54,197 nt of DNA from Actinomycetota bacterium (GCA_016841065.1 JAENZW010000004.1:1-54197); one strand, 5' to 3'; counted from the stretch's first letter, positions 1,109 to 51,462 are shown. Made by a program: numbers and translations. Notes: generated by a model not told the origin, from the sequence alone.

Positions 1109-1159
1109 CTGCGAAGCGTCACACGCTGCTTTTTCGAAATGGGAAGGGGAGCCGCGTTC

Positions 1160-5309: not shown

Positions 5310-5311
5310 GC

Positions 5312-32600: not shown

Positions 32601-33423
32601 CGTAGACGGTCCCAGTCGCATCGACAGTGACTCCCTGCGGGTTCTGGAAGGTGTCCGTGCCGCCGTCGTCCCACGTATCGAGTGTCAGCTGGAGGGTTCC
32701 GGAAGTGCTATATCGATACACCTTGCTGTACATGGCGTCTGCGACCCACACGTGGCTGAAGCTGTCGATCCAGATACCGTCGGGACTTGGCGGCAAGCCG
32801 TCGAGGGGATCAGGATCCGGCAGAAGCCACTGAGAGAGGTAGTTGCCCGAAGAGTTGAATACCTGGATGCGTCCGTTGTAGGTATCGCTGACGTAGATGT
32901 CGTCCGATGCGTCGACGGCGACGCCCATGGGGTAGTCGAACTCACCGATTTCCGTGCCGTACGAGCCGAAGTGATTCACGTACTCGCCGTACGAGTCAAG
33001 AATCATGATCCGATAGTTGTCGGCGTCCGCTACGATGACGCGGCCGGTGGAGTCGACCGCGATGTGAGCCGGCCAGAGGAGTTCTGGCGGATCGATGCTG
33101 GTTCCTGCGGATGCGAACGAGCCGAGCGGCGTGGAGGTTGAGTCGAGCGAGTAGAGGCTGATCTGACTGTATTCCGAGGGATAGGGACCGTAGGGGTCGC
33201 CGTAGTCGCTCTCGGACACCAGCACCGTGCTGCTGCCGACAACGGCGACGGCCTCAGGCCAGCCGCTTCTTCCCGCGGCGATGTCCGTCTCCCACTGCCA
33301 GGTATCTAGCGGGGACGGCCCTGTCTCTCCCGCCACGGCGGACATGCTCACGGCCACTACTGCAAGCAGCAGCGATCCCATGATCACGCCCGCAATCCGG
33401 GCAACCCTCTTCTTTCTCGACAC
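21703..33423 (-). CDS. giant secreted modular protein: NHL propeller, 27 Ig-like repeats, 10 beta-sandwich modules
   Basis: About 3,906 residues in one uninterrupted frame. A basic start and hydrophobic segment (RIAGVIMGSLLLAVVAVSMSAVAGE) form a signal peptide. An NHL beta-propeller follows (DNA about 32,405-33,290; repeats such as PMGVAVDASDDIYVSDTYNGRIQVF). Next come 27 repeats of about 83 residues (type A), recognisable by TAPVTTSNAP, the SGV turn and YYSVDxxGNxE; they resemble OmpL47/chitobiase C-terminal Ig-like repeats. Ten modules of about 130 residues (type B), with a GTWWSS...SGG start, DLYG core and GxDALDVxG end, look like galactose-binding beta-sandwiches. Four are at the extreme C-terminus after a fifth interspersed one. 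No sortase signal, SLH domain or C-terminal helix is seen. GTG at 33423 has GGAGG eight bases upstream. Likely a surface adhesin or polysaccharide-binding fibre; specificity unknown. Confidence 0.9.
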   Translation of the reverse strand: MSRKKRVARIAGVIMGSLLLAVVAVSMSAVAGETGPSPLDTWQWETDIAAGRSGWPEAVAVVGSSTVLVSESDYGDPYGPYPSEYSQISLYSLDSTSTPLGSFASAGTSIDPPELLWPAHIAVDSTGRVIVADADNYRIMILDSYGEYVNHFGSYGTEIGEFDYPMGVAVDASDDIYVSDTYNGRIQVFNSSGNYLSQWLLPDPDPLDGLPPSPDGIWIDSFSHVWVADAMYSKVYRYSTSGTLQLTLDTWDDGGTDTFQNPQGVTVDATGTVYVADTLNDRIVRFDSSGTFVQSIGESGSGPGQFSVPEDVACDADGNLYVADSGNDRVQFILYEMDSTDVVPPVTTSNIQAEWEQGQPFVVTLSAMDASSAVQATYYSTDGSYPARRYSSSLSISDEGTTTVRYYSRDVAGNVEPVHTDFLRIDNTPPVTTDDAQPVYIGTANITLSRTDNLSGVASTFYKINQSSWTPGTSVITNVLGSHTIQYYSVDAAGNSEGVNQIDIVIDPIDSDPPDTYSNISSSWYTAPAQVTLTATDTVTGVDKTYYSSDGSTPTIEYSTPFTISSEGIHTVKFYSIDKRGNAESVNSETVRIDWTKPWTTSNAESSYVDSGTITLTSGDNLSGLLNTKYRLNGGSWVTGKTIYIGTVGHHVIEYYSTDYAGNAETINIDEIDILPIDVDPPVTSSNIPNGWTTGAPFHGGLIAYDAVSGVEFTHYTIDLASYTATFTLEETSTSYDIPFEVWGEGEHTISYYSVDYRGNVESGTVESLLIDNTAPDTTDDHIETPYIQSGTVHLFPTDALSGVATTKYKVDQGSWMTGQTITITSFGVHTIQYYTTDGAGNIEETNSIQVEVLPPDTDPPVTTSNITDEWITSPLTVSLEATDAVSGIDKTFYSINGGFTQIYAAPFQISTEGQTEVRYYSRDTRGNVETPNLATVKIDYTAPVTTSDVGDTYSGDAMIHFFPTDPASGVTQTYWKFDSGSWQTGTSAYISAWGWHTVYWYSVDNAGHVETTKSKTFRVRLWTNSYQQNDSSLALKGPWTTVTGSGSGGSWAWTNTSGAETHVYFNGERIVWYGELGSDFGEADVYLDGQYVSTRDLYSAASQYDKALWDSGTIDYTYHYVIIKWTGQKNASSTGTRISADRFAIDGVIALVPDTVAPVTTSNAPTGWTNGPVQVALTSTDATTGVAATYYSTTGANPTTPYTVPITFSNEGTNIFKYYSLDVRGNVEPIKTEYIKIDNTAPVTTSNAASTYVGPAAITLSSTDPYSGVANTYWRLDGGSWNPGTAVSTSALGSHTLEYYSVDAIGNTEAVKSVSFDLMARYEETDAALAWKGTWWSTNHASLSGGSFKQTATTGSALYFVFDGTRAEWITSKNTNYGIARVTLDDNAPVTVDLYGSFAFKQKVWSSGTISSGTHRLKIEYTGTKNASSSGYTIGVDAIDVAGTLVSDTTAPSTSADAAAGWTHGGVTVTLTATDAQTYVAESRYRIDGGASTLYSAPFPVTAEGTHTVEYWSIDGAGNTEVSKNVTVYVDSTAPVTTDDAPTAWVNGPVTVTLTSTDPYSGVETTYYRINSGVVTTYTAPLEFADEGTTLLQYWSVDAIGHTETAHNVNVRIDDTAPVTSDNAPVGWVHGPVLVSLFPQDTVSGVAATYYRLDGGAQTSYATPLLIGGSGTRTLEYWSVDNAGNTQAVQTATLKLDYSAPITTSNAASTYVGSANITLTASDTQSGVANTYWRLDGGSWNPGTAVSTSALGSHTLEYYSVDAIGNTEAVKSVSFDLMARYEETDAALAWKGTWWSTNHASLSGGSFKQTATTGSALYFVFDGTRAEWITSKNTNYGIARVTLDDNAPVTVDLYGSFAFKQKVWSSGTISSGTHRLKIEYTGTKNASSSGYTIGVDAIDVAGTLVSDTTAPSTSADAAAGWTHGGVTVTLTATDAQTYVAESRYRIDGGASTLYSAPFPVTAEGTHTVEYWSIDGAGNTEVSKNVTVYVDSTAPVTTDDAPTAWVNGPVTVTLTSTDPYSGVETTYYRINSGVVTTYTAPLEFADEGTTLLQYWSVDAIGHTETGVAATLRIDNTAPVTTCETPGAWVKGPAYAVLSATDTYSGVDTTYYRADSGLVTTYTSPIAFSEPGTHTVTFFSVDPAGNTEGWSDTHYVLVDEGAPTSLLPEHSADWRSDASVSVSILATDDGSGVAASYYSLNGSALSEYAGPFDVSDEGINTVEYWSADVAGNIEDTQTATVKLDRTAPSTTDDAPEGFRAGTVHVTLSATDADAGVADTYYSLDGGDETTYTVPVAVSGEGTHTIAYHSVDVLGNTEDVREAVVRIDDSAPSTTDDAPEGWVHGPVLLALSAQDSAAGVAGTFYSILGSDPETLYDGPFPVIAEGINSITYRSVDIAGNTEAIQTATVKIDNTAPTTTSNALASYSTSATIRLTGSDLHSGVAQTQYRLNSGAWTEGTQIVVTTGGSYTLDFRSTDAVGNIEATKTASFTITKRFEESDPKVVFQGSWWSSSNANLSGGTSKSTLSVGGAVNIRFTGTKLTWISTRATNYGKARLILDGGAPVEVDLYGTFAFKQAVWNSGTLADGEHTVRIEYTGTKNAASTGYSVSIDAVDVIGELLVADKTAPVSTSNAPVDWRTAPVSVTLSASDDMSGVQAIYYRVNDGDTNTYSVPFVISTDGANSLEFWAVDNVGTIETSHFTTVSVDLTDPVSTTDAPDNWASSPVTVAISAEDTASGVAHTYYSLDGSVPSVEVTSPLVISNEGTSTIKYYSVDIAGNAEDVKTARVQIDDTAPQTIDNALEGWVQGPFYLILSPNDNASGIAETAYRSASGTTTVYASPVEISSEGVTTIDYASTDVKGNIEETRTATVRIDNTAPLTTSNTLSSYNTSATIRLSASDSLSGVDRTEYRLNGGGWTDGADIVVTTGGSHVVEFRSLDEAGNVEDTKSASFTITKRFEQVASQIIYQGTWWDSSHSSLSGGTAKNTASIGAIANIRFTGTKITWVSTKATNYGTARLILDGGAPVDVDLYGAFSFKQNVWTSGDLASGAHTVRIEYSGQKNPASTGYTINVDAFDVVGELLVADTTAPVTTSNTPTTWKTTPITITLSASDNMSGVSGTYYRINGGTAKTYSAPFVVSTPGDNVVGIWSVDAAGNTEVAHAAHAKVDTLAPVTTSDAVADYNESAAIVLSATDVGSGVQSTQYRLDAGTWTTGTSISTSAGGPHTVEFKSTDVAGNVETVKSVSFSIKKRFEQDNGRVALLGPWAKTSHVNLSGGNFMVTSTKGAAAEFTFRGTKIDWITSSNTNYGRALVTVDGTTTYTVDLYGAFSFKQNVWSSGLLPNGTHTVRIECLYEKSASSTGYTIGVDAFDVNGELVDRRYEQDTSLVAYEGNWAVTSHASLSGGDYLYVNSPGSAVNVAFTGTKITWVTSNSTNYGKALVTVDGTTTHTVDLYGTTAFQQNVWTSGTLTNEAHTVRIEYLGTKNPASSGYTVGVDALDVSGVLTQAQTPSTRYEDVSTLLAYDGTWSSTSGSGLSGGAYKVTSTPGSAVNVAFTGTKITWVTAKATNYGIATVSVDGGPTQNVDLYGTFAYQQKVWTSGTLADGPHTLKISFTGNKNPGSTGIHVGVDALDVVGVLTQAEPSTPPGTRYEETDALLGWAGTWSSLSNSGLSGGAYRLTATPGSSLTVGFTGTRITWISSKSTNYGIAQVTVDDGTPVPVDLYGSFAFKQAVWTSGELTDGSHTLKIEYTGDKNAASSGYMIGIDALDIVGVLTEAVTGPQPTRFDNLDSGIAYAGSWSSVNHANLHSGSWKVSSTPGSTVSLSFDGSRIDWIGSKSTSYGKALVSVDGGLAEEVDLYGVFAFKQLIWSSGDLTSGPHTVTITCMGAKRTESAGTMIGVDALDIIGEITP
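27228..28245 (-). repeat. 1,018-bp perfect direct repeat, copy 1
   Basis: Base-for-base identical by eye to 28605-29622, at an offset of 1,377 bases (459 codons). It encodes one type Y repeat end, one type B module and two type A repeats. After a 40-base divergent patch (28246-28285) identity resumes in register for about 29 bases. Confidence 0.95.
28605..29622 (-). repeat. 1,018-bp perfect direct repeat, copy 2
   Basis: Second copy of the segment at 27228-28245, inside the same reading frame. The two copies are separated by 359 bases that encode unrelated type A repeats. Confidence 0.95.
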
Positions 33424-33523
33424 TGGGTACACCTCCACGTGTCCACTCCGTGTCTTGCTTGGCACACGGCGCACGCGAAATAGCGCGCCCGTTCGCACAG
33501 TTCATGTATCGTCCACGATGGTC

Positions 33524-37143: not shown

Positions 37144-38259
37144 GTGTTGCGAGCTAGAGCGACGTTTGTCGTCGTAGCGATATTGATGGTGCTCTGTATT
37201 GCCGCGCCTGCGTTCGGCGGGGCTCACGGTGTTGGCTGGCTAGATCCTTGGCCATCGGACTGCGCGGTATGCCACAACGAGGGTTTCCCATATGGCGAGA
37301 AGACAGGGCCGCACGACGGGTACACCACCGGCACGAACAAGTGCGAACTCTGCCACACCGTCCATGACGCCACTTCGTCGTACAAGCTTCTTCCGGCGTT
37401 CACGATTCAATCGACGTGCGAGATGTGTCACGACGGCACCGGCGGGAGCGGTGTGTTCGGGGCAATCGAGGCCCGGGGCCTTACTGTGGGCGCTACACAT
37501 AGGGTAGAGACGACTACCGTCATCCCCGGCGGCGATGCGGCGACAGGGGGGAGTCGGACAGGGTTGTTTACCGGCACTGCTGGCACTCTCACCTGCGGGG
37601 ACTGCCACAGCCCTCACAACTCCAACACAGTAGCGCCGTTCCGGGGCGAGCGAGTCCGGTTCCACGCTGACGAACTCAACTACGGAGCGCCTGACAAGGA
37701 GTGGCGGACCAGCAAGCTGCTTCGGCAACGCCCGACCGGGTCGGAGACAACGGCCACCGTCTATGGGTCGGACTGGTGCGCTACCTGCCACAGGGGCCGC
37801 TCGTCAGGGGGCGCCGTCCACAACCACCCGGTCGACTCGGACGTGACCCAGGCCTCACCGTTCTACTACGATCGCGTGGCCGTGGTGATATCAGACACGT
37901 CGCTCGAGACGACTTTCGGGACGATGGGCCTTGAGGGAACCAGTACTCCGAACCTGTACTGGCACAGCAGAGGCTTCGTGATGCCGTCTCCGCGGACCCC
38001 ACAGCAATCGGGGCACGCTCCAATCTGCCAGCAGTGTCATGAGGACTCGCGTCTGGTCGGAGAGCCCGGCAATGTCCAGAGGGCTGAGGTCTACAGGTAC
38101 GGCAACGGAATGACCAGCGGGGACCCCATTGCCGGTGATCCTCCTACGGACACACCGCTGTTCCAGAACTTCCCGCACGAGACGCAGAACCGGAACTTCC
38201 TTGTGGAGACGGACGACAACCTCTGCATGAACTGCCACCCGACCGCCGGGCTGCCATAG
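37144..38259 (+). CDS. secreted heptahaem c-type cytochrome
   Basis: 371 residues with a signal peptide (about 1-27, ending APAFGG). Seven CxxCH haem-binding motifs are present at residues 40-44, 67-71, 92-96, 151-155, 212-216, 295-299 and 361-365, with many additional His that could be distal ligands. There is no C-terminal membrane helix. The family cannot be named; such cytochromes usually carry electrons at or beyond the cell surface, and the nearby complex I operon makes a respiratory role likely. The GTG start at 37144 follows GGGGAG. An inverted repeat TTCAG-N5-CTGAA (37117-37131) lies just upstream. Maturation genes are not in the window. Confidence 0.93.
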   Translation: MLRARATFVVVAILMVLCIAAPAFGGAHGVGWLDPWPSDCAVCHNEGFPYGEKTGPHDGYTTGTNKCELCHTVHDATSSYKLLPAFTIQSTCEMCHDGTGGSGVFGAIEARGLTVGATHRVETTTVIPGGDAATGGSRTGLFTGTAGTLTCGDCHSPHNSNTVAPFRGERVRFHADELNYGAPDKEWRTSKLLRQRPTGSETTATVYGSDWCATCHRGRSSGGAVHNHPVDSDVTQASPFYYDRVAVVISDTSLETTFGTMGLEGTSTPNLYWHSRGFVMPSPRTPQQSGHAPICQQCHEDSRLVGEPGNVQRAEVYRYGNGMTSGDPIAGDPPTDTPLFQNFPHETQNRNFLVETDDNLCMNCHPTAGLP

Positions 38260-40162: not shown

Positions 40163-40183
40163 GACCATATGTGCGGCTAGAAT
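40155..40183 (+). promoter_or_regulatory. promoter of the nuo operon
   Basis: TTTACA at 40155-40160, 17-base spacer, TAGAAT at 40178-40183. The start would be near 40190, giving a leader of about 128 nt that contains a hairpin (CCCGTTC 40197-40203 with GAACGGG 40213-40219). Confidence 0.7.
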
Positions 40184-40266
40184 GCCGTACAACGCGCCCG
40201 TTCGTTCGACATGAACGGGTGAGGGGGGTTGGGCCTGCGGGGGTACGTCTGACCGGCCGGAACGCT

Positions 40267-40283
40267 TGTAACAACGAGTTACA
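40267..40283. promoter_or_regulatory. second palindrome in the nuo leader
   Basis: TGTAAC-AACGA-GTTACA is a perfect inverted repeat with an odd 5-base spacer. It shares TTGTAACAA with the upstream operator and lies about 77 bases after the predicted transcript start. Confidence 0.4.
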
Positions 40284-40317
40284 TGGCACCGAGACGGCTT
40301 GCAGCAGGGGGTTCGCA

Positions 40318-40686
40318 TTGCACGACACGCCCGTCCAGAGCGTTCTTTTCGCACTCGGCCTCGCTATCGCGGCCGGAGGCTTCATCGGGCTGATATTTCT
40401 GGTTAACAAGGCGCTTTCGCCGCGTCATCCTACCGCCGAGAAGGTCGAACCGTACGAGTGCGGTATGGAACCTGCGGGACGTCCCTGGGTCCCGGTTCGA
40501 GTTCGCTTCTCGACGATCGCGCTGCTATTCGTGCTCTTCGACGCGGAGGCCGCTCTGCTCTTCGCCGTTTCCACCCGCCTCCGCGGGAGCTGGATCGCCC
40601 TTGTCGAGGTCGGCGCGTTTGTGGCCTTCCTCTCGCTCGGCCTTCTGTACGCCTGGCGAAAGGGGGCCCTCGCGTGGCGTTCGTAG
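40318..40686 (+). CDS. nuoA: NADH-quinone oxidoreductase subunit A
   Basis: 122 residues with three membrane helices, the normal size. The conserved loop EKVEPYECGMEPAGRPWVPVRVRF, with the Cys that sits near the quinone channel (ND3 loop), and FLFDAEAALLF-like FVLFDAEAALLFAV are family signatures. The TTG start at 40318 is preceded by AGGGGG; an earlier in-frame ATG at 40171 would add an arginine-rich stretch across the leader palindrome and is not credible. First gene of the complex I operon; its end overlaps nuoB by 13 bases. Confidence 0.95.
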   Translation: MHDTPVQSVLFALGLAIAAGGFIGLIFLVNKALSPRHPTAEKVEPYECGMEPAGRPWVPVRVRFSTIALLFVLFDAEAALLFAVSTRLRGSWIALVEVGAFVAFLSLGLLYAWRKGALAWRS

Positions 40687-41267
40687 ACCGTCTCGGCGAG
40701 ATCCTGAGCGAAGGTGGGCAGGGCGGGATCATCCTGACGTCCATCGATGCGCTGGCCGATTGGTCTCGCGGCAAGTCGCTGTGGGCCATGCCCATGGGCA
40801 CCGCGTGCTGCGCGATGGAGCTCATCGCTGCGTCGTTCGCGAAGTTCGACTTCGACCGCCATGGAAGCTTCCCGCGTCCCGATCCGCGCCACACCGACGT
40901 GATGGTTGTTGCAGGCACCATCACCAGGAAGATGGCGCCGGCGGTCAAGCGGCTCTACGAGCAGATGCCGGAGCCCAAGTGGGTCATCGCAATGGGCAAC
41001 TGCGCAGTATCCGGCGGCATCTTCTTCTACGACTCGTATTCAGTCATCCGAGGCGTGGATGAGTTCCTGCCTGTGGACGTCTACATCGCAGGGTGTCCGC
41101 CGCGGCCGGAATCGCTGCAAGACGCGGTTCTTCGGCTAAGAGAACTGATCTCCACCGAATCCATCGCGCCGGGCGTCAAGCACGAGCGTACTCTCAGTCT
41201 TCCCAGGTCAGGCGACGTGAGCTTCGGCGTGCGTCCAGGATCTGCCGAAGAGGGTGACGCCGAGTGA
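40674..41267 (+). CDS. nuoB: NADH-quinone oxidoreductase subunit B
   Basis: Carries the terminal cluster N2 that reduces quinone. 197 residues with all four ligands: tandem C45-C46 in GTACCAMEL, C110 in AMGNCAVSGG and C141 in AGCPPRPE. The GTG at 40674 lies inside nuoA with AGGGGGCC upstream. The C-terminal 30 residues are polar and variable. It overlaps nuoC by 4 bases (GTGA). Confidence 0.97.
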   Translation: MAFVDRLGEILSEGGQGGIILTSIDALADWSRGKSLWAMPMGTACCAMELIAASFAKFDFDRHGSFPRPDPRHTDVMVVAGTITRKMAPAVKRLYEQMPEPKWVIAMGNCAVSGGIFFYDSYSVIRGVDEFLPVDVYIAGCPPRPESLQDAVLRLRELISTESIAPGVKHERTLSLPRSGDVSFGVRPGSAEEGDAE

Positions 41268-41725
41268 ACATCACCGAGCTGCGCGATCACCTGTGCGAAC
41301 AGCATCCCGACCTCTGCCCGCTGTTCTCTATCGAGTTCGGCGATGGTGTTCTGAGCGTCAGCTGCGACAAGCTCTACGAAGCCGCGTCGGGCCTGCGAGA
41401 TCTGGGATTCGACCGGCTTGGAATGGCAACAGCCGTCGATCGTGGAGAGACGTTCGAGGTCGTATACAGGCTGACGTCGCGCTCGATGTCGGTCGGCATA
41501 TTCCTGAAGTGCCACGTTCCGAGAGACGCGCCGAAGACGAACTCACTGTTCCCCCTGTGGCCTGCCGCGCTGTGGCAGGAGCGAGAGATCTTCGACATGT
41601 TCGGCATCGACTTCGAGGGCCATCCCGATATGCGGCGCATCCTGCTGCCTGACGACTGGGTGGGCCATCCGCTCCGTAGGGACTACACCGACGACCGGAT
41701 GATCCGCCGTCCAGACTACATCTAG
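41264..41725 (+). CDS. nuoC: NADH-quinone oxidoreductase subunit C
   Basis: 153 residues of the 30-kDa subunit family, a separate gene rather than fused to nuoD. The signature WPAALWQEREIFDMFGIDFEGHPDMRRILLPDDWVGHPLRRDY is intact. It links the hydrophilic arm modules and has no cofactor. GTG start coupled to the nuoB stop. Confidence 0.96.
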   Translation: MNITELRDHLCEQHPDLCPLFSIEFGDGVLSVSCDKLYEAASGLRDLGFDRLGMATAVDRGETFEVVYRLTSRSMSVGIFLKCHVPRDAPKTNSLFPLWPAALWQEREIFDMFGIDFEGHPDMRRILLPDDWVGHPLRRDYTDDRMIRRPDYI

Positions 41726-41755: not shown

Positions 41756-42901
41756 ATGACGCTTGAGGTAGAGAGCCGCAAGGAGACACTGGCCGAAGAC
41801 GGGCTTCCGGTTGAGGAACTCGTCGTCAACGTCGGTCCGTCGCACCCCTCGACGCACGGGGTCTGTCGCGTGATCGTGCATCTCGATGGCGAGATAGTGA
41901 CCAGGGCCGAACCGGTCATCGGATATCTCCATCGCGGCATCGAGAAGATGTGCGAGAACCGGACATACCTGCAAGTAGTCCCGCTCACGGATCGGCTCGA
42001 CTACGTGGGCTCGATGTACGCGAACTGGGCCTACTGCCGCGCAGTCGAGCGTCTCGCGGGCATCCGGGTTCCCGAACGTGCTGAGTACCTGCGCGTCATC
42101 GTCTGCGAGATGCAGCGCATAGCAAGTCACATGATGTCGCTCGGTTCTGCAGCCGCAGACACCGGGGCCGCCACGATGTTCATCTACGCGTTCGATGAGC
42201 GCGAGACGATTGTCGAACTCTTCGAGGACCTGTGTGGAGCGCGACTCACGTACAACTACGTTCGTCCCGGTGGCGTCAGCTTCGACATCCCGGAGGGCTG
42301 GACTGACCGGCTCCTCGAGTTCTGTCGGACCCATCGCGTCGCCTTGCGCGAGATGGACAAGCTGTGGTTCGGCAATGTGATTGCGCGGGGTCGCATGAAG
42401 GGCATCGGCGTGCTGGCTGCCGATGACGCGGTTGCATGGGGTGCATCGGGTCCCGTTGCAAGGGGCTCGGGTGTGAACTGGGACCTGCGCAAACACGACC
42501 CGTATTCTGTGTATCCGCGTTTCGACTTTGACATCCCCACTGGTAGTGCGGGAGACGTGTACGACCGTGCGCGCGTGCGGCTGTACGAGTGCTACGAGTC
42601 GTGCCGCATCATCGAACAAGCGGTGGCACAGATGCCCGGAGGACCGATCAAGGCCGAAGGGCTTCAACGGCTCATCGCCCCGAGGCCCGGCGACGCCTAC
42701 GACCACATCGAGAGCGCGCGCGGATCCCTCGGCGTCTACATCGTCAGCGAGGGTGGACCCAGGCCCCATCGCGTGAAATTCCGCTCGCCCGCGTTCTGCA
42801 ATCTCGCTCTACTGCCGCTTATTGCGGAGGGTCATATGCTCTCCGACCTGGTAGTTTGTCTCGGTTCGCTCGACCCCGTCTTCGGGGAGGTGGACCGGTG
42901 A
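41756..42901 (+). CDS. nuoD: NADH-quinone oxidoreductase subunit D
   Basis: Forms the quinone-binding site with NuoB. 381 residues, typical of the 49-kDa subunit. GPSHPSTHG places the quinone-site His at residue 34, LTDRLDYVGSMYANWAY contains the conserved tyrosine region, and RPGGVSFDIPEGW, RGSGVNWDLRK and ARGSLGVYIVSEGG are family segments. The Cys pairs of the [NiFe]-hydrogenase large subunit are absent, so this is not a hydrogenase. ATG follows GAAGGGAGG, the strongest internal ribosome-binding site of the operon. Confidence 0.97.
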   Translation: MTLEVESRKETLAEDGLPVEELVVNVGPSHPSTHGVCRVIVHLDGEIVTRAEPVIGYLHRGIEKMCENRTYLQVVPLTDRLDYVGSMYANWAYCRAVERLAGIRVPERAEYLRVIVCEMQRIASHMMSLGSAAADTGAATMFIYAFDERETIVELFEDLCGARLTYNYVRPGGVSFDIPEGWTDRLLEFCRTHRVALREMDKLWFGNVIARGRMKGIGVLAADDAVAWGASGPVARGSGVNWDLRKHDPYSVYPRFDFDIPTGSAGDVYDRARVRLYECYESCRIIEQAVAQMPGGPIKAEGLQRLIAPRPGDAYDHIESARGSLGVYIVSEGGPRPHRVKFRSPAFCNLALLPLIAEGHMLSDLVVCLGSLDPVFGEVDR

Positions 42902-43848
42902 GCGGCCTCTTGGGCGGAATCGTCTTCGGACTCGTAGGCGGAGTGGCGATAGCGCTCAGCACGATGGTGGGTGTCTATGGCGAGCGCAAGATCGCGGCCA
43001 AGATCCAGCGGCGCTTCGGCCCGCAGGAAACAGGCCCCTATGGTCTGCTGCAGTTGCCCGCAGACACCCTGAAGATGATCCTGAAAGAGGACATCACGCC
43101 GCGTCAGGCGGATGCCCGCATCTTCAAGATCGCGCCGTACTTCGTGTTCGTGCCGATAGCCATGGGCCTCGTTGTCATTCCGGTTGCAGCTGGCTGGGCG
43201 GCGCTCGATTCGAGCATCGGCATCCTGTTCTTCCTGGCAGTGCCGTCGCTTTCGGTTCTCGGCATCCTCATCGCCGGATGGTCGTCGGGTAACACCTACG
43301 CGACCATCGGAGGGATGCGAGGCGCCGCGCAGATGATCTCGTACGAACTGCCGCGGACGCTCTCGGTACTCGCAGTCGTGATCCTTGCCGGATCGCTTCG
43401 GCCGGTCGATGTGGTCCAGGCGTGGCGTTGGTGGTGGATCCCCCTGAACTTCATCGGAATCGTTGTCTACTACATCTCATCGATCGCGGAGCTCAACCGG
43501 GGTCCATTCGATATCCCCGAGTCAGAATCCGAGCTCGTCGCAGGCTACTTCGCGGACTACGCAGGAATCCGGTGGGGCATCTTCATGATGTCCGAGTACG
43601 GCGGCATGCTTGCGGCTTCTCTGTTCGGCGCAGCGATATTCCTCGGGACCCTGACCTGGCTTCCGGGCCCCTTCGGCATCATCACGTTCCTCCTGGGGAC
43701 GGGTGTCATCGGGTCGAGCATGATCTGGGTCAAGTGGACATTCCCGCGCATGCGACCCGACCAGCTGATGACCACAGCGTGGAAGGTCCTCACGCCGCTG
43801 GCCCTCGTGCAACTCGTCATCGTCGGGGTGGTGGTCCCGTGGCTCTAG
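42898..43848 (+). CDS. nuoH: NADH-quinone oxidoreductase subunit H
   Basis: 316 residues with eight or nine membrane helices; forms the quinone chamber and the link to the proton channels. Signatures: VYGERKIAAKIQRRFGPQ, GPYGLLQLPADTLKMILKED, ISYELPRTLSVLAVVIL and ELNRGPFDIPESESELVAGY. GTGA overlap with nuoD; the next gene starts inside its last codons. Confidence 0.96.
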   Translation: MSGLLGGIVFGLVGGVAIALSTMVGVYGERKIAAKIQRRFGPQETGPYGLLQLPADTLKMILKEDITPRQADARIFKIAPYFVFVPIAMGLVVIPVAAGWAALDSSIGILFFLAVPSLSVLGILIAGWSSGNTYATIGGMRGAAQMISYELPRTLSVLAVVILAGSLRPVDVVQAWRWWWIPLNFIGIVVYYISSIAELNRGPFDIPESESELVAGYFADYAGIRWGIFMMSEYGGMLAASLFGAAIFLGTLTWLPGPFGIITFLLGTGVIGSSMIWVKWTFPRMRPDQLMTTAWKVLTPLALVQLVIVGVVVPWL

Positions 43849-45911
43849 TCAACGAGCCCCGCCACGACGAGATAGGCGCACCGGACCGCACTCCGATCGC
43901 CGTGCCCGTGACCGTAGGTGTGACTGACGACTTCCCCGGCGGCATCGCAGGCTTCGTTGCCCGCTGGCGTTCGCTGTTTACAGGTCTTCGCATAACAGGT
44001 GGCCGCGCGCTCGGCCCGTCCAAGACCCTGCGCTACCCGGCCGAGAAGTACGAAGTCTCGCAACGATGGCGCGGTGCGTTGCGTCTGCAGGGAGTACTGG
44101 GAAAGAACGAGATTCCCCTGCTGCGCGAGCCCAGCCCCACATACAACGCCAAGATCGAAGAGCTGTACCGCACGGATCGCCTCGCACCGTGCATGGGGAA
44201 CTGCCCGGCCAACGTGGATGCGCGCGGGCAGAACTACTTCATGGCAGAAGACCGCTCTGTAGAGGCCTACGAGCTTGTTCGGGATCGCAACATCTTGCCG
44301 GGTGTTCTCGGCAGGATCTGCCATCACCCCTGCGAGACGGCGTGCCGTCGCAACTTCTATGACGAGCCCGTGGCTATTCGGCCACTCCACCGGATCGCCT
44401 ACGAGGCATATACAGACCAGGCGCCCGAGATCGTGCCGTTCGAGCGAACCAGCGACAAGCGGATCGCGATAATCGGTGCCGGCCCGTCGGCACTTGCGGC
44501 GGCATACGACCTTATGAAGCTCGGATACGGCGTCACGGCTTTCGAGAAGGAGGAGAAGCCAGGGGGCGCGCTGTACTCGGGCGTTCCGTCCTACCGCCTG
44601 CCCCGCGAGGTCCTTCACGGCGAGATCGACAACATCGTGGCCCTGGGTCTGGACCTGCGTTGCGGCGTCGAGGTCGGTCCCGATGTTCCCATCGAGCACC
44701 TGTTGGGCGAGTACGACGCAGTGCTCATCGCGGTTGGCCTCCAGCAGAGCCGCATCCTTCCGATTCCGGGGAACGATTCTGAGGGTGTGCGCGGGGCTCT
44801 CGAGTTCCTGCGTGCCGCCAACTGGCGTGGAGAGGCCGGCGTCAAGGGTAAGCGCGTCTTCGTGATCGGCGGCGGTAACGTTGCTGTTGATGTGGCACGC
44901 TGCGCTCTGCGCGTTGGCGCGACCGAGGTCCGCCTGGCATGCCTCGAGGGCGATGACGAGATGCCATGCCACCCGTGGGAGCTCGAGGAGGGTCTCGACG
45001 AGGGCATGATCGCGATGTGTTCTCTCGGCCCGGAAGAAGTGCTTGCCGAAGACGGCGTCGTGGTAGGCATGCGCATGCGCGAGTGCCTCGCGGTCTTCGA
45101 CGAGACCGGACGATTCTCGCCGAAGTTCGGCGAGAATCTCACGGATGTGCCTACCGACATCGTGGTCTTCTCGATCGGCCAGGCGCCGATGCTCGCCGGC
45201 GTCGTCGCTGGATCCGACTTGCACCTCACCGAGCGCGGACTGCTGCCGGTCGACGGCACTGTGTTCACGACGGATCACCCCGGCGTCTTCGCATGTGGCG
45301 AGGTGGTCACGGGGCCGGGTAGCTGCATCGGTTCCATATCGACTGGACACGAGGCCGCGATCTCCATTCACCGGTATCTTCACGATGAGTCGCTGCGCGA
45401 AGGTCGCGTGGCTCGCCCGGTGCCCACGTACGCGCGCTACGCCGTCGCCGATGTCGACGGCGTGGAAGAGAGCCGCCGGCGCGTCGAGATGCCTATGGCC
45501 CGAGGCGAGGATCGCGCGCACGACTTCCGGCAAGTCGAACTCGGCCTCACTCACCTCGAGGCGTTGCAGGAGGCCGCGCGGTGTCTACGATGCCAGTCCG
45601 AGGTGTGTGTCGGCTGTACCTTCTGCGCTAGGACGTGCCCGGACTACGCGATTCAGGTCGAGCGCGTGGATGATCCCGGCGGACGTGCTGTGACGCGCTA
45701 CGACCTTGACCTGACGAAATGTTGCTTCTGCGGTTTGTGCGCCGAGCAGTGTCCCACCGACGCGCTCCGTCACACGGGGCAGTACGAGCTGTCGTTCTAC
45801 CACCGCGATCTTGCCCAGTTCGATATCGACGAGATGTTGCGCGACGGCGACGGAACGCGTGCAACCGGACGCGACGGCGAACACGGTCACAAGGTCGGTG
45901 AGACCCAGTGA
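43839..45911 (+). CDS. nuoI: NuoI split by an inserted GltD-like FAD/NAD(P)H oxidoreductase
   Basis: 690 residues at the exact nuoI position. Residues 37-82 resemble the NuoI N-terminus (membrane-surface helix, then LRYPAEKYEVSQRWRGALRL). The NuoI ferredoxin domain is displaced to 580-665: C590-x2-C593-x2-C596-x3-C600 and C628-x2-C631-x2-C634-x3-C638, then QYELSFYHRD, a NuoI ending; C582 and C585 are extra. Between them lies a glutamate-synthase-small-subunit-like module: Cys-rich segment with C118, C122, C161, C165 and C169, FAD motif IIGAGPSALAAA (211-222) and pyridine-nucleotide motif VIGGGNVAVDVAR (342-354). The NADPH-type YRR is replaced by CLE (368-370), which favours NADH. The GTG at 43839 overlaps nuoH by 10 bases. 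No nuoE, F or G is present, so this protein probably supplies electron input. Confidence 0.9.
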   Translation: MALVNEPRHDEIGAPDRTPIAVPVTVGVTDDFPGGIAGFVARWRSLFTGLRITGGRALGPSKTLRYPAEKYEVSQRWRGALRLQGVLGKNEIPLLREPSPTYNAKIEELYRTDRLAPCMGNCPANVDARGQNYFMAEDRSVEAYELVRDRNILPGVLGRICHHPCETACRRNFYDEPVAIRPLHRIAYEAYTDQAPEIVPFERTSDKRIAIIGAGPSALAAAYDLMKLGYGVTAFEKEEKPGGALYSGVPSYRLPREVLHGEIDNIVALGLDLRCGVEVGPDVPIEHLLGEYDAVLIAVGLQQSRILPIPGNDSEGVRGALEFLRAANWRGEAGVKGKRVFVIGGGNVAVDVARCALRVGATEVRLACLEGDDEMPCHPWELEEGLDEGMIAMCSLGPEEVLAEDGVVVGMRMRECLAVFDETGRFSPKFGENLTDVPTDIVVFSIGQAPMLAGVVAGSDLHLTERGLLPVDGTVFTTDHPGVFACGEVVTGPGSCIGSISTGHEAAISIHRYLHDESLREGRVARPVPTYARYAVADVDGVEESRRRVEMPMARGEDRAHDFRQVELGLTHLEALQEAARCLRCQSEVCVGCTFCARTCPDYAIQVERVDDPGGRAVTRYDLDLTKCCFCGLCAEQCPTDALRHTGQYELSFYHRDLAQFDIDEMLRDGDGTRATGRDGEHGHKVGETQ

Positions 45912-46411
45912 ATGACACGATCGTTCAAATCATGTGGTGGGTCCTCGCAGCTGGCGCGCTCGCCGGTGCTGTCACGGTTGTGTTCTCTCGTGACGTGCTG
46001 CGCATGGCGCTCGGTCTCGGCGGCTTCCTTGTCGCGCTTGCTGGGTTCTACATGTACTACGCGCTGCCATTCCTCGCGACCGTGCAGGTCTTCGTCTACG
46101 TCGGCGGCGTGCTTGTGTTGATTCTTTTCGGCATCATGCTTGTTCACAGGAGTGAGGGAGATGCTCGGCCCGGCTTGTCGTCACGACACGACCCGGGATC
46201 GGCGGCCGTGGCCGTTGGGATACTCGCGCTGGTCACATCGATGCTGTGGCCTCTACGAGACGTGATGACCGAGCGTCCTGCGTCGGCTGGCACGAAGGCT
46301 ATCGCCGACTTGCTCCTGGGCGACTTGCTGCCGCACTTCGAGGCGGCAGGTGCACTGCTGCTCATCGCGTTGGTGGCGGTCATCGTGATCGCTGGCGGTG
46401 ATGACCGGTGA
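45908..46411 (+). CDS. nuoJ: NADH-quinone oxidoreductase subunit J
   Basis: 167 residues with five hydrophobic helices. The conserved TM3 region with its pi-bulge is recognisable in FYMYYALPFLATVQVFVYVGGVLVLILFGIMLV. GTG start overlaps the preceding stop by four bases and the stop overlaps nuoK likewise. Confidence 0.95.
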   Translation: MNDTIVQIMWWVLAAGALAGAVTVVFSRDVLRMALGLGGFLVALAGFYMYYALPFLATVQVFVYVGGVLVLILFGIMLVHRSEGDARPGLSSRHDPGSAAVAVGILALVTSMLWPLRDVMTERPASAGTKAIADLLLGDLLPHFEAAGALLLIALVAVIVIAGGDDR

Positions 46412-46716
46412 ATATCGTCGTTGTGGCAACAGCGCTGTTCTCTGTGGGCCTCTACGGCGTGCTGACGCGTCGAGACCTGATCGCAGTCCTCGCGAGTGTC
46501 GAGGTCATGCTCGGCGGCGCGAGCGTGCTGCTCGTCGGACTCGCCCGCACGATCGACATGCCCGCGACCCAGCTCCCGGGCGGGGTCGAGTCTGTGGGCG
46601 TCCTGATAGTCGTTCTCGCCGCTGCGGAAGCCGCAGTGGCACTCGCCGTGGTCATCGCAGCCGCGCGCGCCCTGAGTACCAGCCGTGTTGACGAGATGAC
46701 CGAGGTGGGAGGCTGA
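46408..46716 (+). CDS. nuoK: NADH-quinone oxidoreductase subunit K
   Basis: 102 residues, three helices, the standard size. Both membrane glutamates of the proton path are present, E32 (ASVEVML) and E74 (AAAEAAV). GTG start coupled to nuoJ; the TGATG overlap couples it to nuoL. Confidence 0.95.
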   Translation: MNIVVVATALFSVGLYGVLTRRDLIAVLASVEVMLGGASVLLVGLARTIDMPATQLPGGVESVGVLIVVLAAAEAAVALAVVIAAARALSTSRVDEMTEVGG

Positions 46717-48530
46717 TGACCGCGCTAGTCGAGAATGCGTGGCTGGTAGTAGCCGTCCCCTTCGGCCTCGCTCTGTTGGTTGGACTGACCGGTCGCATCC
46801 TGCGCGGTGCTGTCCCCTGGGTGACGCTCCTTGCGCCCTTGACGGTTCTCGCGACCGGTGTGGCGGCGCTTTCTGCCGAAGGGGAGCACGCGGACTCGGT
46901 TCGCTGGCTGTTCGCCGGGGAGAAGGCGCTGTCCTTCGGCTGGAGCGTCGACGGGCTCACCGCCATCATGCTCACCGTCGTCGGCTTCGTTGCGACGATG
47001 GTCGTACTGTTCTCGATCGGCTACATGCACGGCGAGTCCGGCCTGCCACGCTACTTCGCGTCCTTGTCATTGTTCACGGGCTCCATGGCGCTGCTCCTCG
47101 TCGCCGACGGGCTCGTCGGCCTGTTCGTTGGATGGGAGCTTGTCGGCGCGTGTTCCTATCTGCTGATCGGATTCTGGTTCCGCAAGCCGTCCGCTGCCGC
47201 AGCTGCGGTGAAGGCCTTCCTGACCACGCGCGTTGGCGATGTCGGTCTCTTGTTGGGGCTGGCACTGCTGTGGCGCGAGACCGGGCAACTCGGGTATTCG
47301 GCCGTTTTCGAGGCTGCGGAGGCGCTCCCGGTAGCCACTGTCACGACCGTCGCGATCCTTCTGTTCGTGGGCGCGATGGGCAAGTCGGCACAGTTCCCGC
47401 TGCACATCTGGCTACCCGATGCGATGGAGGGCCCGACACCCGTCTCGGCGCTCATTCACGCGGCTACCATGGTTGCAGCGGGCGTCTTCCTTGTCGCACG
47501 CATGTGGCCTCTGTACGAGCTGTCTGAGACCGCCCAGACAGTGATTCTGGTGATCGGTGTGTTCACGGCGCTCGCCTCGGCGACCGTCGCGTGCGCACAG
47601 CGCGACATCAAGAAGGTCCTCGCGTACTCAACGATCAGCCAGCTTGGGTTCATGTTCGCCGCACTGGGCGCGGGCGCGTGGGTTGCCGCCATCTTCCACC
47701 TCGTGACGCACGCTGCGTTCAAGGCATTGTTGTTCCTGGGCTCCGGAAGCGTCATTCATGGGACGGGAACCCAGGACCTGCGTGAGATGGGTGGGCTCGC
47801 GAAGAAGATGCCGGTGACGGCTTTGACGTGGGTCATCGGCTCCCTGGCTCTTGCGGGGGTTGCCCCGCTGGCAGGCTTCTTCAGCAAGGACGAGGTCATT
47901 CACGCGGTACTCACGAGGAACACGATCGCCGGACTGGCACTCCTCGCGGCGAGCCTTCTGACTGCGTTCTATATCACGCGTGCGACCCGCCTCGCGTTCT
48001 TCGGCGAGTACAGGGGTGATGGGCATCCACACGAAGGCGGGCTGGTGATGAGCGTTCCGCTGATCGCGCTTGCGGTCCCGGCTGCAACGCTCGGTTTCGC
48101 GGGCCACTTCATCGCGGAGCGCCTTCACGAGCACGCCGAGTCGCTGAATATGGCGGTCGCGGCGGGCTCGCTTGCGGTCGCTGCCGTGGGAATCGGGTTT
48201 GGGCTGATCACCTATCGAAACGGCGCGGAGTCTGAGGTCGCCGTCGAGAACCGCATGGGCAAGACCTGGGAAACGCTCCGCGGAGCCTACGGATTCGATG
48301 CAGCGGTGAGCGCGCTGGTCGTGAGACCCGTCACGGCGATCTGTCAGTGGCTCTACGATGTCATTGACCGCAAAGTGATTGACGCTTCGGTGGAGAGCAC
48401 AGGGCGCTGGGTCCCTCTTCTCGGGCGTCTGCTGTCGTCACTCCAGAACGGTGACGCGCAGTGGTACGCGGCTCTGTTGGGTGCCGGCGTCGTCGGCCTG
48501 ATCGCTCTGCTCGTGACGGGGGGGCGGTGA
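46716..48530 (+). CDS. nuoL: NADH-quinone oxidoreductase subunit L
   Basis: 604 residues of antiporter-like subunit, the distal proton pump. Signatures include FVGWELVGACSYLLIGFW (with the TM5 Glu), GAMGKSAQFPLHIWLPDAMEGPTPVSALIHAATMVAAG and the broken-helix region AHAAFKALLFLGSG-like THAAFKALLFLGSGSVIHG. The C-terminus (about 520-604) retains the lateral helix and a last membrane anchor, so it is complete. ATG shares a base with the nuoK stop. Confidence 0.96.
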   Translation: MTALVENAWLVVAVPFGLALLVGLTGRILRGAVPWVTLLAPLTVLATGVAALSAEGEHADSVRWLFAGEKALSFGWSVDGLTAIMLTVVGFVATMVVLFSIGYMHGESGLPRYFASLSLFTGSMALLLVADGLVGLFVGWELVGACSYLLIGFWFRKPSAAAAAVKAFLTTRVGDVGLLLGLALLWRETGQLGYSAVFEAAEALPVATVTTVAILLFVGAMGKSAQFPLHIWLPDAMEGPTPVSALIHAATMVAAGVFLVARMWPLYELSETAQTVILVIGVFTALASATVACAQRDIKKVLAYSTISQLGFMFAALGAGAWVAAIFHLVTHAAFKALLFLGSGSVIHGTGTQDLREMGGLAKKMPVTALTWVIGSLALAGVAPLAGFFSKDEVIHAVLTRNTIAGLALLAASLLTAFYITRATRLAFFGEYRGDGHPHEGGLVMSVPLIALAVPAATLGFAGHFIAERLHEHAESLNMAVAAGSLAVAAVGIGFGLITYRNGAESEVAVENRMGKTWETLRGAYGFDAAVSALVVRPVTAICQWLYDVIDRKVIDASVESTGRWVPLLGRLLSSLQNGDAQWYAALLGAGVVGLIALLVTGGR

Positions 48531-49969
48531 CGGTGGCCCAGCTCGACGCGCTCATCTTGCTCCCGGCCATAGGCGCACTCCTCTGTGTGTTCGCGGGCAA
48601 ATACGCGCGCTGGTTCGCGCTCATAGTCGCGCTGGCGACCGCTGGCATGGCGTACTCGGCGCTCAGTGAGACAAGCTTCGCCACGGGCGCCGCGGTTCAC
48701 GGTTCGCTGGAGCGCCTCGGCGCTGTGCCGTCTTGGGCGCTGACCCTCGACGGTCTTTCGGCTCCACTGATCGCGCTGACTGCGTTCCTCGGAATCATCG
48801 CAGTACTTGCGTCGTGGGGCGTCGAAGAGCGACCTGCGGCGCACCACGCGCTTCTGCTGTTCCTGACCGCAGCTGTGATGGGTGTCTTCCTTGCCGAAGA
48901 TGTGATCCTGTTCTACGTCTTCTGGGAGGCCGTGCTCATCCCGATGTTCTTCCTCATCGGGGTGTGGGGTCACGAGAACCGAAAACGAGCGGCGATCAAG
49001 TTCTTCCTGTACACGTTCGTCGGCAGTGCCCTCATGCTCGTCGGGTTGCTCATGGCGGTCTTCAGCACGGGCCTCACGCGGATCACCGACCTTGCGAGCG
49101 TGAGTGACGTGTTTGCGGCGAGAAGCATGTTCTGGCTGCTTGCGATCGGCATGCTCGTCAAGATCCCGGTCGTGCCGCTACACACGTGGCTTCCTGACGC
49201 GCACGTCGAAGCGCCGACCGCTGGCTCGATCATGCTGGCGGGCGTTCTCCTGAAGATGGGCGGCTACGGGCTGCTGCGGGTGGCAATTCCGCTGTCGCCA
49301 TCTGGATTCCAGGAGGCGCGCGGCATACTGGCCGCTCTGGGCATCATCGGAATCGTCTACGGGGCTGCGATGGCCCTGGCTCAGACTGACCTCAAGCGAC
49401 TGGTTGCGTACTCATCGGTCGCGCACATGGGCTTCGTGATGCTTGCGATCGCCGCTGCCACCACACAGGGCACCGTTGGGGCGATGCTGGTCATGGTGAG
49501 TCACGGTGTTGTCTCCGGCCTGCTGTTCCTACTCGTGGGATTGCTCTACGAGCGTACGCACACGAGGGAACTTGGCCGCTTCGGCGGAATGGGCGGCGTC
49601 GTGCCCGGTTGGGCGACCGCCATGACGTTCGGTTCACTAGCCAGTCTGGGACTCCCCGGTCTGTCCGGTTTCCCGGGCGAGTTTGCCGCGTCCCTTGAAG
49701 GATTCAGAGCATTTGGGTGGTGGATCGTCCCGGCGGCCGTTGGCCTCGTGTTGGCAGCCGCGTACAACCTGCGCGCTGTTCGCGGTGTCAATCACGGTCC
49801 GGCGACAGGGGAGTGGGACTCGATCCCGGATCTCAGAGCGCGCGAATGGCTCCCGGTGATCGCACTCGCCGTGGCGATCGTCGCCCTGGGCGTATGGCCG
49901 CGTCTGGTCGCTGACGTGATTGAACCCGCCGCATCCGCGCTCATGGCGCTGGTCGGAGGTGGGCTGTGA
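48527..49969 (+). CDS. nuoM: NADH-quinone oxidoreductase subunit M
   Basis: 480 residues, 14 helices expected. Family segments: ILFYVFWEAVLIPMFFLIGVWG with the TM5 Glu, KIPVVPLHTWLPDAHVEAPTAGSIMLAG, and VAYSSVAHMGFVML. GTG at 48527 overlaps the nuoL stop; a second GTG two codons later is possible. Its stop overlaps the nuoN start. Confidence 0.96.
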   Translation: MTVAQLDALILLPAIGALLCVFAGKYARWFALIVALATAGMAYSALSETSFATGAAVHGSLERLGAVPSWALTLDGLSAPLIALTAFLGIIAVLASWGVEERPAAHHALLLFLTAAVMGVFLAEDVILFYVFWEAVLIPMFFLIGVWGHENRKRAAIKFFLYTFVGSALMLVGLLMAVFSTGLTRITDLASVSDVFAARSMFWLLAIGMLVKIPVVPLHTWLPDAHVEAPTAGSIMLAGVLLKMGGYGLLRVAIPLSPSGFQEARGILAALGIIGIVYGAAMALAQTDLKRLVAYSSVAHMGFVMLAIAAATTQGTVGAMLVMVSHGVVSGLLFLLVGLLYERTHTRELGRFGGMGGVVPGWATAMTFGSLASLGLPGLSGFPGEFAASLEGFRAFGWWIVPAAVGLVLAAAYNLRAVRGVNHGPATGEWDSIPDLRAREWLPVIALAVAIVALGVWPRLVADVIEPAASALMALVGGGL

Positions 49970-51462
49970 GCATCCCACGCGAGGACCTCATCATGTTGGT
50001 ACCGCTCATGTCCGCCTTCGCGACCGCGGTCGTTGCTCTCGTGGTCGATGCCTTTGGCAAGCGCAAGGCTTCGGTAGGCCTGGCCATTGTGGGACTGGCA
50101 GCTGGCGGCGCATACGGCATCGTGCTTGGCGTGCGTGAGGATCCGAGACTCGTGGCGGATCTCTTCGCCTCCGGTGGAGGCTACTCCGCGATCTCGGGCT
50201 ACATGCTCTTGCTGGGCGCGCTCGCCCTCCTGGGTGGCTGGAACTGGTTCACAGCGAGCCCGCTCGGCGGCGGCGCGGCGGTGCTCATCGCATTCGTGTG
50301 CGGTGCGTCCGTCGGTCTTGCCACTTCGCTCGACCTATTCATCATGATCATCTGCCTCGAAGCACTTGCGATCTGCGGCTACGCATTGACCTCGCAGGCG
50401 CGCAGCGCACGCTCTGCCGAAGCTGCGGTCAAGTACGTCATCCAGGGTTCCGTGGCTACGGGACTCCTTTTGCTCGGCTTCGCCATCCTATACGGCGTCT
50501 ATGTCGCGCGAACCGGGTTGTACGACACCGGTGTCGCACGTGGGGCCGGCGCGCCCGAGCCGGCACTCGCGGCACTCGGTCTGATCGTCGGTGCGTTCGC
50601 GTACAAGCTCGGCGCGTTCCCGTTCCACTCGTGGGCGCCGGACGCCTTCGAGACGGCACCTCCGGCCTCTGCCGCTGTCATGTCGAGCGTGCCGAAGATC
50701 GCTGCCGTCGTCGCGTCGATTCTCGTGTTCGGAATAGCGTTCGGAGCCGCCGACACGGGACGACTACCGGTGCTCTGGATGGTTCTCGCGGCGGGTTCGA
50801 TCATCTTCGGAAACCTCGTGGCGCTCAAGCAGACCTCATACACGCGCATGCTCGGCTACTCGGGCGTCGCGCAGATTGGCTACGTCCTGGTGGGGCTTGC
50901 TGCGCCGTCAGCTGCGTGGACGACAAGCGCGCTACTCGTACTCGTATGCGCCTATGGACTTGCCGCCGCGTGTGCGTTCCTGGGAGCCGAGGCGGCACGA
51001 GTCGCCCGGCCGGGCTGGGACCGGTCGATAGCCGGCTTGGCGGGGCTTGGTCGGGAGCGGCCGGTTCTGGGGTTGAGCATGGCTGTTGCGATGTTCTCGC
51101 TGACAGGAATGCCGCTGACCGCCGGCTTCTGGGGCAAGTTCGGTGTGTTCGGCGCGGCTCTTGTGGATGACTCGCACTGGTTGGTCGGAATCGCGGTGCT
51201 CGGCATCGTCGGTTCGGTCGTTTCATTCGGCTACTACGGGGGAGTGTTGAAGGCGCTGTTCTTCGATTCACCGGAGGACGCTCCTGAGGATGCCCTCGTT
51301 GCCGACGAGTTGGGAGCGGACTCCGAGGAACCCTCGCGATTCTCGGCGATGCCCGCGATTCTCGCGAGCGCTCTTGCCGCCGTAGCCATCCTAGCAGTGG
51401 GTATCGCACCCGCTTTTCGCGGGCTCGAGTGGCTCTACGAGCTGCTGAACGTACTCGGCTAG
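49966..51462 (+). CDS. nuoN: NADH-quinone oxidoreductase subunit N
   Basis: 498 residues, the third antiporter-like subunit. Signatures: SLDLFIMIICLEALAICGYAL, KLGAFPFHSWAPDAFETAPPASAAVMSSVPK and MLGYSGVAQIGYVL. A polar acidic loop (about 435-455) precedes the last helix. GTG start at 49966 with GGAGGTGGG upstream. It is the last gene of the 11-gene operon; no clear hairpin terminator follows before the next promoter at 51499. Confidence 0.95.
   Translation: MSIPREDLIMLVPLMSAFATAVVALVVDAFGKRKASVGLAIVGLAAGGAYGIVLGVREDPRLVADLFASGGGYSAISGYMLLLGALALLGGWNWFTASPLGGGAAVLIAFVCGASVGLATSLDLFIMIICLEALAICGYALTSQARSARSAEAAVKYVIQGSVATGLLLLGFAILYGVYVARTGLYDTGVARGAGAPEPALAALGLIVGAFAYKLGAFPFHSWAPDAFETAPPASAAVMSSVPKIAAVVASILVFGIAFGAADTGRLPVLWMVLAAGSIIFGNLVALKQTSYTRMLGYSGVAQIGYVLVGLAAPSAAWTTSALLVLVCAYGLAAACAFLGAEAARVARPGWDRSIAGLAGLGRERPVLGLSMAVAMFSLTGMPLTAGFWGKFGVFGAALVDDSHWLVGIAVLGIVGSVVSFGYYGGVLKALFFDSPEDAPEDALVADELGADSEEPSRFSAMPAILASALAAVAILAVGIAPAFRGLEWLYELLNVLG

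Follow-up and report, generated by a model that had tools for sequence, protein, structure and literature searches.

The 54,197 nucleotide stretch of DNA from an Actinomycetota bacterium that was analysed here at its whole length (GCA_016841065.1 JAENZW010000004.1:1-54197; the window) carries a complex I operon in which the place of nuoI is taken by a gene for a 690-residue fusion protein: a NuoI into which a complete, circularly permuted flavoprotein of the NfnB/GltD type is inserted. The host is an 11-subunit complex I without NuoE, NuoF and NuoG, and the fusion protein is likely to feed electrons from NADH into this complex and on to quinone. The original prediction, made from the sequence of the window, described NuoI-like ends around a flavin adenine dinucleotide (FAD) and pyridine nucleotide module, a description borne out by Pfam, by TIGR01971 and by a profile of the N-terminus; the insert that it described also exists, although at about 500 residues it is somewhat longer than the ~480 first given.

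Architecture of the fusion protein

The reading frame of 690 residues at 43839-45911 (+) is confirmed and lies between nuoH and nuoJ in an operon of the order nuoABCDH-X-JKLMN. The features of the gene are as follows.

43839..45911 (+), NuoI::GltD fusion gene, 690 residues; its GTG start corresponds to the ATG start of the orthologue L017
43926..44093 (+), NuoI N-terminal segment, residues 30-85 (helix, YP.EK, RWRG), from the profile test and the insertless NuoI of L138 and L150
44166..45593 (+), inserted GltD/NfnB-type module, residues 110-585, from the PRK12771 match and the alignment to NfnB 4ylf
44184..44411 (+), Fer4_20 domain with C118, C122, C161, C165, C169 and H184, from Pfam and alignments
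44388-44390 (+), codon of H184, at the position of NfnB E117 and StnC K170
44460..45338 (+), FAD fold (GAGPS, 213-217) with embedded NAD(P) fold (GGGNVA, 344-349), from Pyr_redox_2 (E 2e-22) and Foldseek
44940..44948 (+), C368-L369-E370, standing where the YRR motif for NADP binding would be expected
45582..45593 (+), C582-L-R-C585, equivalent to NfnB C39/C42 (ligands of the distal cluster) and placed behind the FAD domain, from the NfnB alignment
45594..45824 (+), NuoI dicluster domain (N6a/N6b type) with C590, C593, C596, C600, C628, C631, C634 and C638 and a YELSFYHR tail, from TIGR01971

Pfam recognizes Fer4_20 (residues 116-191), Pyr_redox_2 (208-500) and Fer4_7 (590-642), and the best NCBIfam match is the GltD-like family PRK12771 (110-644, E 1e-130). 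The NuoI model TIGR01971 matches residues 586-662 (E 1e-23) with 83 bits, a score under the curated whole-protein cut-off of 113 bits, and the match covers only sequence C-terminal to the insert. The standard NuoI models need more length than the NuoI-like N-terminus offers, but a custom profile of 37 ordinary NuoI N-termini gives 30.8 bits on the window protein (residues 45-83) and 17.8-41.9 bits on the other listed fusions, as compared to 9.5 bits for the best of 2000 shuffled N-termini. Thus the two CxxCxxCxxxCP motifs, the C-terminal tail and the membrane-side N-terminal segment of NuoI are all present, together with the Fer4_20 ligands, FAD fold and NAD(P) fold of a GltD/NfnB-type iron-sulfur flavoprotein, whose CxxC is circularly permuted. 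Among 24 fusions compared, 14 cysteines are invariant (C118, C122, C161, C165, C169, C585 and the eight of the dicluster domain), and C582 is kept in 23.

The boundaries of the insert are fixed by two genomes of family f46 that have a short, insertless NuoI at the same operon place (L138, at the 10058-10300 region, and L150) and whose relatives within the family carry the fusion. The short protein aligns to residues ~1-61 and then 558-639 of the relatives' fusion, with 60-64% identity at both ends, which places the insert at residues ~80 to 586 of the window protein. This insert of about 500 residues replaces the loop that joins the N-terminal segment, which faces the membrane, to the two-cluster domain.

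The inserted flavoprotein

By sequence and fold, the best relatives of the insert among solved structures are the large subunits of NfnABC/StnABC, NfnB, GltD and DPD. NfnABC/StnABC/NfnI are also the top Foldseek matches for the FAD/NAD part of an AlphaFold2 model of the fusion, which was built from a 13-sequence alignment and of which only the FAD/NAD region is confident and was used. When aligned to Thermotoga NfnB (4ylf), residues 46-462 of the latter correspond to 117-517 of the window protein and residues 4-48 to 547-591; the first CxxC part of NfnB hence lies behind the FAD domain, and the insert is circularly permuted relative to NfnB. All seven cluster cysteines of NfnB find a counterpart: 582/585 correspond to NfnB 39/42, 118/122 to 47/51 and 161/165/169 to 90/96/100.

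The junction with the dicluster domain is fixed in length. The second Cys of the permuted CxxC is separated by four residues from the first dicluster Cys of NuoI (C585-x4-C590) in 24/24 fusions, and since five residues reach at most ~19 Å between alpha-carbons, the distal cluster of the GltD module should be adjacent to the NuoI clusters.

The nucleotide preference is suggested by comparison to DsrL, in which a YRR motif marks the NADP(H) type and is missing from the NAD(H) type (PMC7596348). At this position the fusions of the window's order and of most other families have C-L-E, S-L-E or M-L-E, and YRR is present in family f46 and in the divergent fusions L134 and L114. On this basis the window fusion and its lineage are predicted to use NAD(H), and the f46 fusion NADP(H).

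The host complex I and the proposed path of electrons

The core subunits other than NuoE, NuoF and NuoG that the original prediction assigned to the operon are recognized by Pfam, and the order of the genes puts the fusion, as it had proposed, at the nuoI position between nuoH and nuoJ.

40171..40686 (+), nuoA, Oxidored_q4 E 3e-28; true start probably near 40366
40458..41267 (+), nuoB, Oxidored_q6 E 4e-30; true start probably near 40728
41264..41725 (+), nuoC, Complex1_30kDa E 6e-39
41756..42901 (+), nuoD, Complex1_49kDa E 3e-91
42889..43848 (+), nuoH, NADHdh E 2e-98
45908..46411 (+), nuoJ, Oxidored_q3 E 2e-28
46408..46716 (+), nuoK, Oxidored_q2 E 4e-14
46716..48530 (+), nuoL, Proton_antipo_M/N
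48461..49969 (+), nuoM, Proton_antipo_M E 5e-73
49966..51462 (+), nuoN, Proton_antipo_M E 1e-50

All members of an 11-subunit complex I (A, B, C, D, H, I as the fusion, J, K, L, M and N) are thus together, and Pfam finds no nuoE, nuoF or nuoG within the fusion operon. In NuoB the cysteines are arranged as a cluster N2 site would require (GTACCAME, GNCAVSGG, CPPRPE), and the window NuoD retains the quinone-site His (HPSTHG) and Tyr (NWAYCRAVE), both of which are kept in the NuoD of every fusion operon aligned. A gene of the MqnA/D-type menaquinone pathway is present in the genome itself and in 9/12 genomes tested.

A built-in NAD(P)H input appears to be the function that best fits these features. 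With the cofactor sites occupied, as we infer, NADH would bind the embedded NAD fold and pass a hydride to FAD, from which single electrons would move to a proximal [4Fe-4S] cluster (C122, C161, C165 and H184), to a distal [4Fe-4S] cluster (C118, C169, C582 and C585), to the two NuoI clusters (N6a/N6b) and to N2 in NuoB, and from there to (mena)quinone, powering the NuoHJKLMN proton pump. A single polypeptide would in this way replace NuoE, NuoF, NuoG and NuoI in function, and the complex may also run backwards, making NADH during H2 or formate lithotrophy.

Four points weigh against this scheme. Respiratory quinones were reported as undetected in two cultured members of the order (PMC9686372). 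The AlphaFold2 model is poor, with a mean predicted local distance difference test score (pLDDT) of 52.5 and both ends of the protein missing from it. The distal cluster of the GltD module could neighbour either N6a or N6b, the division of the individual NuoI ligands between these two clusters being our own assumption. Finally, the fusions of family f45 (L135:5635-7080 and L136) are without the NAD(P) fold in an otherwise intact nuo operon: their Pyr_redox_2 match is limited to positions 1-118 of the profile, and the Fer4_20 and dicluster domains are retained. Pyridine nucleotide is therefore not essential in every member.

The alternative that survives best leaves the anatomy unchanged and turns the direction around, the proton motive force and quinol serving to reduce NAD+ for lithotrophs that feed electrons from H2 or formate into quinone. 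Cultured strains of the order live on H2 or formate with Fe(III) or sulfur, and they carry quinone-linked group 1i hydrogenases (PMC9686372), and a DsrL-type module can favour NAD+ reduction (PMC7596348); direction, however, cannot be revealed by sequence, and such reverse operation as the main mode of the complex seems unlikely to us.

A second complex I and the question of ferredoxin

A separate nuoI, which according to the original prediction should be absent, does occur in the genome, as an ordinary nuoI on contig C56. The idea nonetheless survives, because this gene belongs to a second nuo operon that is interrupted by the contig end and carries its own A, B, C, D and H. Both operons are complete in the one-contig genome G012 (L066 and L067), where the second is a full 11-gene set (L067). 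At least two nuoH copies are found in 20 of 23 fusion genomes and one in G001, G053 and G060, the single copy of G053 and G060 lying in the fusion operon; order members without the fusion retain the ordinary operon (L069-L071). In the second complex the quinone-site Tyr of NuoD is replaced by Val or Ala (GEQAVALAVE) in 5/5 order members read (L003:3848-5221 on C56 of the same genome; also L067, L069, L070 and L071), and this complex therefore may not reduce quinone in the usual manner.

The absence of NuoF and NuoG, which the original prediction implied for this genome and proposed to test in other genomes with the fusion, holds throughout: none of 28 genomes has a NuoG, and none of 24 a NuoF, that scores above the curated cut-off (NuoE was not searched separately). 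In many fusion genomes, complete or near-complete ones included, NuoF matches are at the level of RnfC only. The candidates for a nuoEFG set elsewhere in the window's own genome were rejected, as one of the two NuoF-domain matches there is RnfC, encoded in an Rnf operon on C63, and the other is HndC-like (C157); the latter adjoins a NuoG-N-like fragment, and neither of the pair reaches the NuoF or NuoG cut-off. The fusion complex accordingly stands without NuoEFG and does not belong to the 14-subunit complexes that have these subunits. The C157 pair is of the hydrogenase or formate dehydrogenase type, contig ends hindering the distinction. As a separate observation, the NuoG-N-like fragment at this locus (L007) is closest to group A6 FeFe hydrogenase, and an extra open reading frame there resembles a CBS-domain protein.

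Reduced ferredoxin could instead be the main donor, with the FAD/NAD module exchanging electrons with NAD+, so that the protein would form a junction of ferredoxin, NADH and quinone. Ferredoxin is the presumed donor of other 11-subunit complexes (PMC11238625) and has been suggested for this order as well (PMC9686372); it is also reduced by NfnB, one of the close relatives of the insert with a solved structure (PMC10482914). But ferredoxin could be served in this genome by the Rnf operon or by the second complex I with its plain NuoI, the insert adjoins the NuoI clusters in sequence, and no additional ferredoxin-docking subunit is seen in the operon; we regard this arrangement as distinctly unlikely, more so than reverse operation.

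The least likely of the mechanistic alternatives, and a quite improbable one, is a bifurcating complex I in which FAD, as in NfnB, splits the electrons of NAD(P)H between quinone and ferredoxin. The module does belong to the NfnB fold family and the organisms are anaerobic, but only one path of clusters is evident and the operon contains no NfnA, the partner of NfnB. In addition, the one ligand of the proximal cluster that is not a Cys is Glu117 in NfnB, Lys170 in the non-bifurcating relative StnC (PMC10482914) and H184 in the window protein, and across 24 fusions this position is His in 18 and Lys in 6. As Lys is the residue of StnC, these replacements favour a linear, non-bifurcating flavin, and linear transfer from NADH through the fusion to quinone is what we would expect. 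R253 (NfnB R201, StnC R239) was considered as a marker of bifurcation and dropped, since it occurs in both bifurcating and non-bifurcating kinds.

Distribution and evolution

At a threshold of E <= 1e-125 the fusion is found in 60/69 genomes searched of the window's order, apparently Anaerosomatales, and in 0/331 other genomes of the class. Fusions of full or nearly full length with 41-52% identity occur in 14 genomes of seven other families of the phylum, and divergent ones in three further families (L134; L135 and L136; L114), making ten families of other classes in total. The same domain order, for which a search of other genomes had been proposed, is thus present in more than 70 of them. 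All 28 operons read place the fusion either between nuoH and nuoJ or, where the membrane genes are detached (L056, L062, L063, L134-L136), immediately after nuoBCD. Outside the phylum the search consisted of one pattern scan of genome contigs, sensitive to close relatives only; a scan of viral contigs for deeper homologues gave none. An assembly artefact or a chance in-frame joining of two genes is rejected because the same architecture, with 41-79% identity and invariant ligands, is conserved in more than 70 independently assembled genomes.

In a tree of NuoB, NuoD and NuoH the short-form L138 nests within the fusion-bearing group (bootstrap 96-97), so that the insert was probably lost there, and the insertless NuoI of L138 and L150 probably represents such a loss. 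In a tree of the inserts, L134 and L136 join L114 outside the main group (99%), and the inserts of f46 branch away from the remaining main-group fusions, groupings from which it follows that the insert has probably been grafted or replaced more than once. Since the insert recurs, was lost and varies in its nucleotide fold, the loop of NuoI seems to serve as a site where exchangeable electron-input modules can dock. On balance we lean toward a general picture in which the single-polypeptide NADH dehydrogenase arm is a further design for input into complex I, ancestral to most of the order, recurrent in other classes with NADH- and NADPH-type motifs, lost in two genomes, deprived of the nucleotide fold in one family, and docked at this loop as one of several exchangeable modules.

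A different graft occurs at L139:7392-9233 (-), where a NuoI N-terminus with one cluster motif is joined to NuoF-like domains within a nuo operon; the open reading frame that follows, near 5213-6844, encodes a GltD-like protein whose C-terminus resembles the second half of NuoI.

Other genes of the window

Shortly upstream of the nuo operon the window encodes a multihaem cytochrome c with doubled CXXCH motifs. Farther away are the gene of a membrane-bound H+-pyrophosphatase and an open reading frame of 3931 residues that is probably a giant surface protein.

37144-38259 (+), multihaem cytochrome c
1139-3265 (+), membrane-bound H+-pyrophosphatase, Pfam H_PPase E 2e-266
21703-33498 (-), 3931-residue open reading frame with NHL beta-propeller repeats and several CE2_N (carbohydrate-esterase N-terminal) domains

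Comparison with known systems

The source of electrons for 11-subunit complex I is unsettled in the field: a published search found no donor shared by these enzymes, and the complex has been envisaged as a platform to which several donors dock (PMC11238625). The authors of the genome paper on the order recorded a nuoNMLKJIHDCBA cluster that lacks EFG, gave the present gene the name nuoI and suggested ferredoxin as an alternative electron source (PMC9686372). A survey of archaeal fusions describes B/C/D fusions (PMC11237513), and in the passages retrieved from a 2025 survey of complex I the fusions are of B, C and D only (PMC12361115). No description of a NuoI-GltD fusion was found in the open full-text literature, a search outside which most subscription papers lie, and within that literature the fusion is a previously unreported route for electrons into complex I. 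In this case the donor is indicated by the gene itself, and the predictions of NADH for this lineage and NADPH for another are testable in cultured members of the order. The ferredoxin suggestion for the order is thereby put in doubt, at least for the fusion operon. The fusion would also offer a simpler natural substitute for NuoEFG and illustrate how respiratory complexes acquire and shed input modules.

The fusion shares with NuoI/Nqo9/NDUFS8 the N-terminal segment, the two four-Cys motifs, the C-terminal YEL tail and the operon place, and differs from them by ~500 extra residues with FAD, the NAD(P) fold and two more cluster sites. With NfnB, GltD and DPD (4ylf, 5jca, 6s6s, 1h7w) it has in common a Fer4_20 domain with seven matching Cys and the FAD and NAD(P) folds; unlike NfnB, it has the first ~48 residues (CxxC) behind the FAD domain, H184 for Glu and CLE for YRR, and is embedded in NuoI. 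The large subunit of StnC/NfnABC (8oh5, 9bov) likewise contains a GltD module in a protein related to complex I, with a linear path from FAD to the clusters. That enzyme, however, is a soluble transhydrogenase with a NuoG-like host domain, HydBC-like bifurcating partners and no membrane pump; its NuoG-like/FdhF-like domain, which holds further clusters, has no counterpart in the fusion, and the GltD part alone aligns well.

DsrL resembles the fusion in having a GltD-type module with a ferredoxin domain of two [4Fe-4S] clusters behind it, and in NAD(H) and NADP(H) types separated by YRR. It serves DsrAB, has a flexible linker of ~100 residues before the ferredoxin domain (PMC7596348) and lacks the NuoI N-terminus and tail. 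In the fusion, residues ~515-577 lie between the FAD domain and the CxxC, and the gene is part of a nuo operon. The putative oxidoreductase PRK13984 (NF010590) likewise unites a NuoI/HycF-like dicluster with a GltD module on a single polypeptide, and the model of the family matches NuoI as well as GltD parts; but its arrangement is tandem, ferredoxin first and GltD second, with no insertion, and the fusion scores 338.7 of 946 bits, far below the cut-off. The 11-subunit enzymes of Desulfitobacterium, Fpo/Fqo and cyanobacterial NDH-1 have nuoABCDHIJKLMN without EFG in common with the present operon. They rely on separate donors (ferredoxin, an F420H2 subunit) or unknown ones, whereas here the input enzyme lies inside NuoI, and the fusion complex looks like an 11-subunit complex I with its own dehydrogenase built in.

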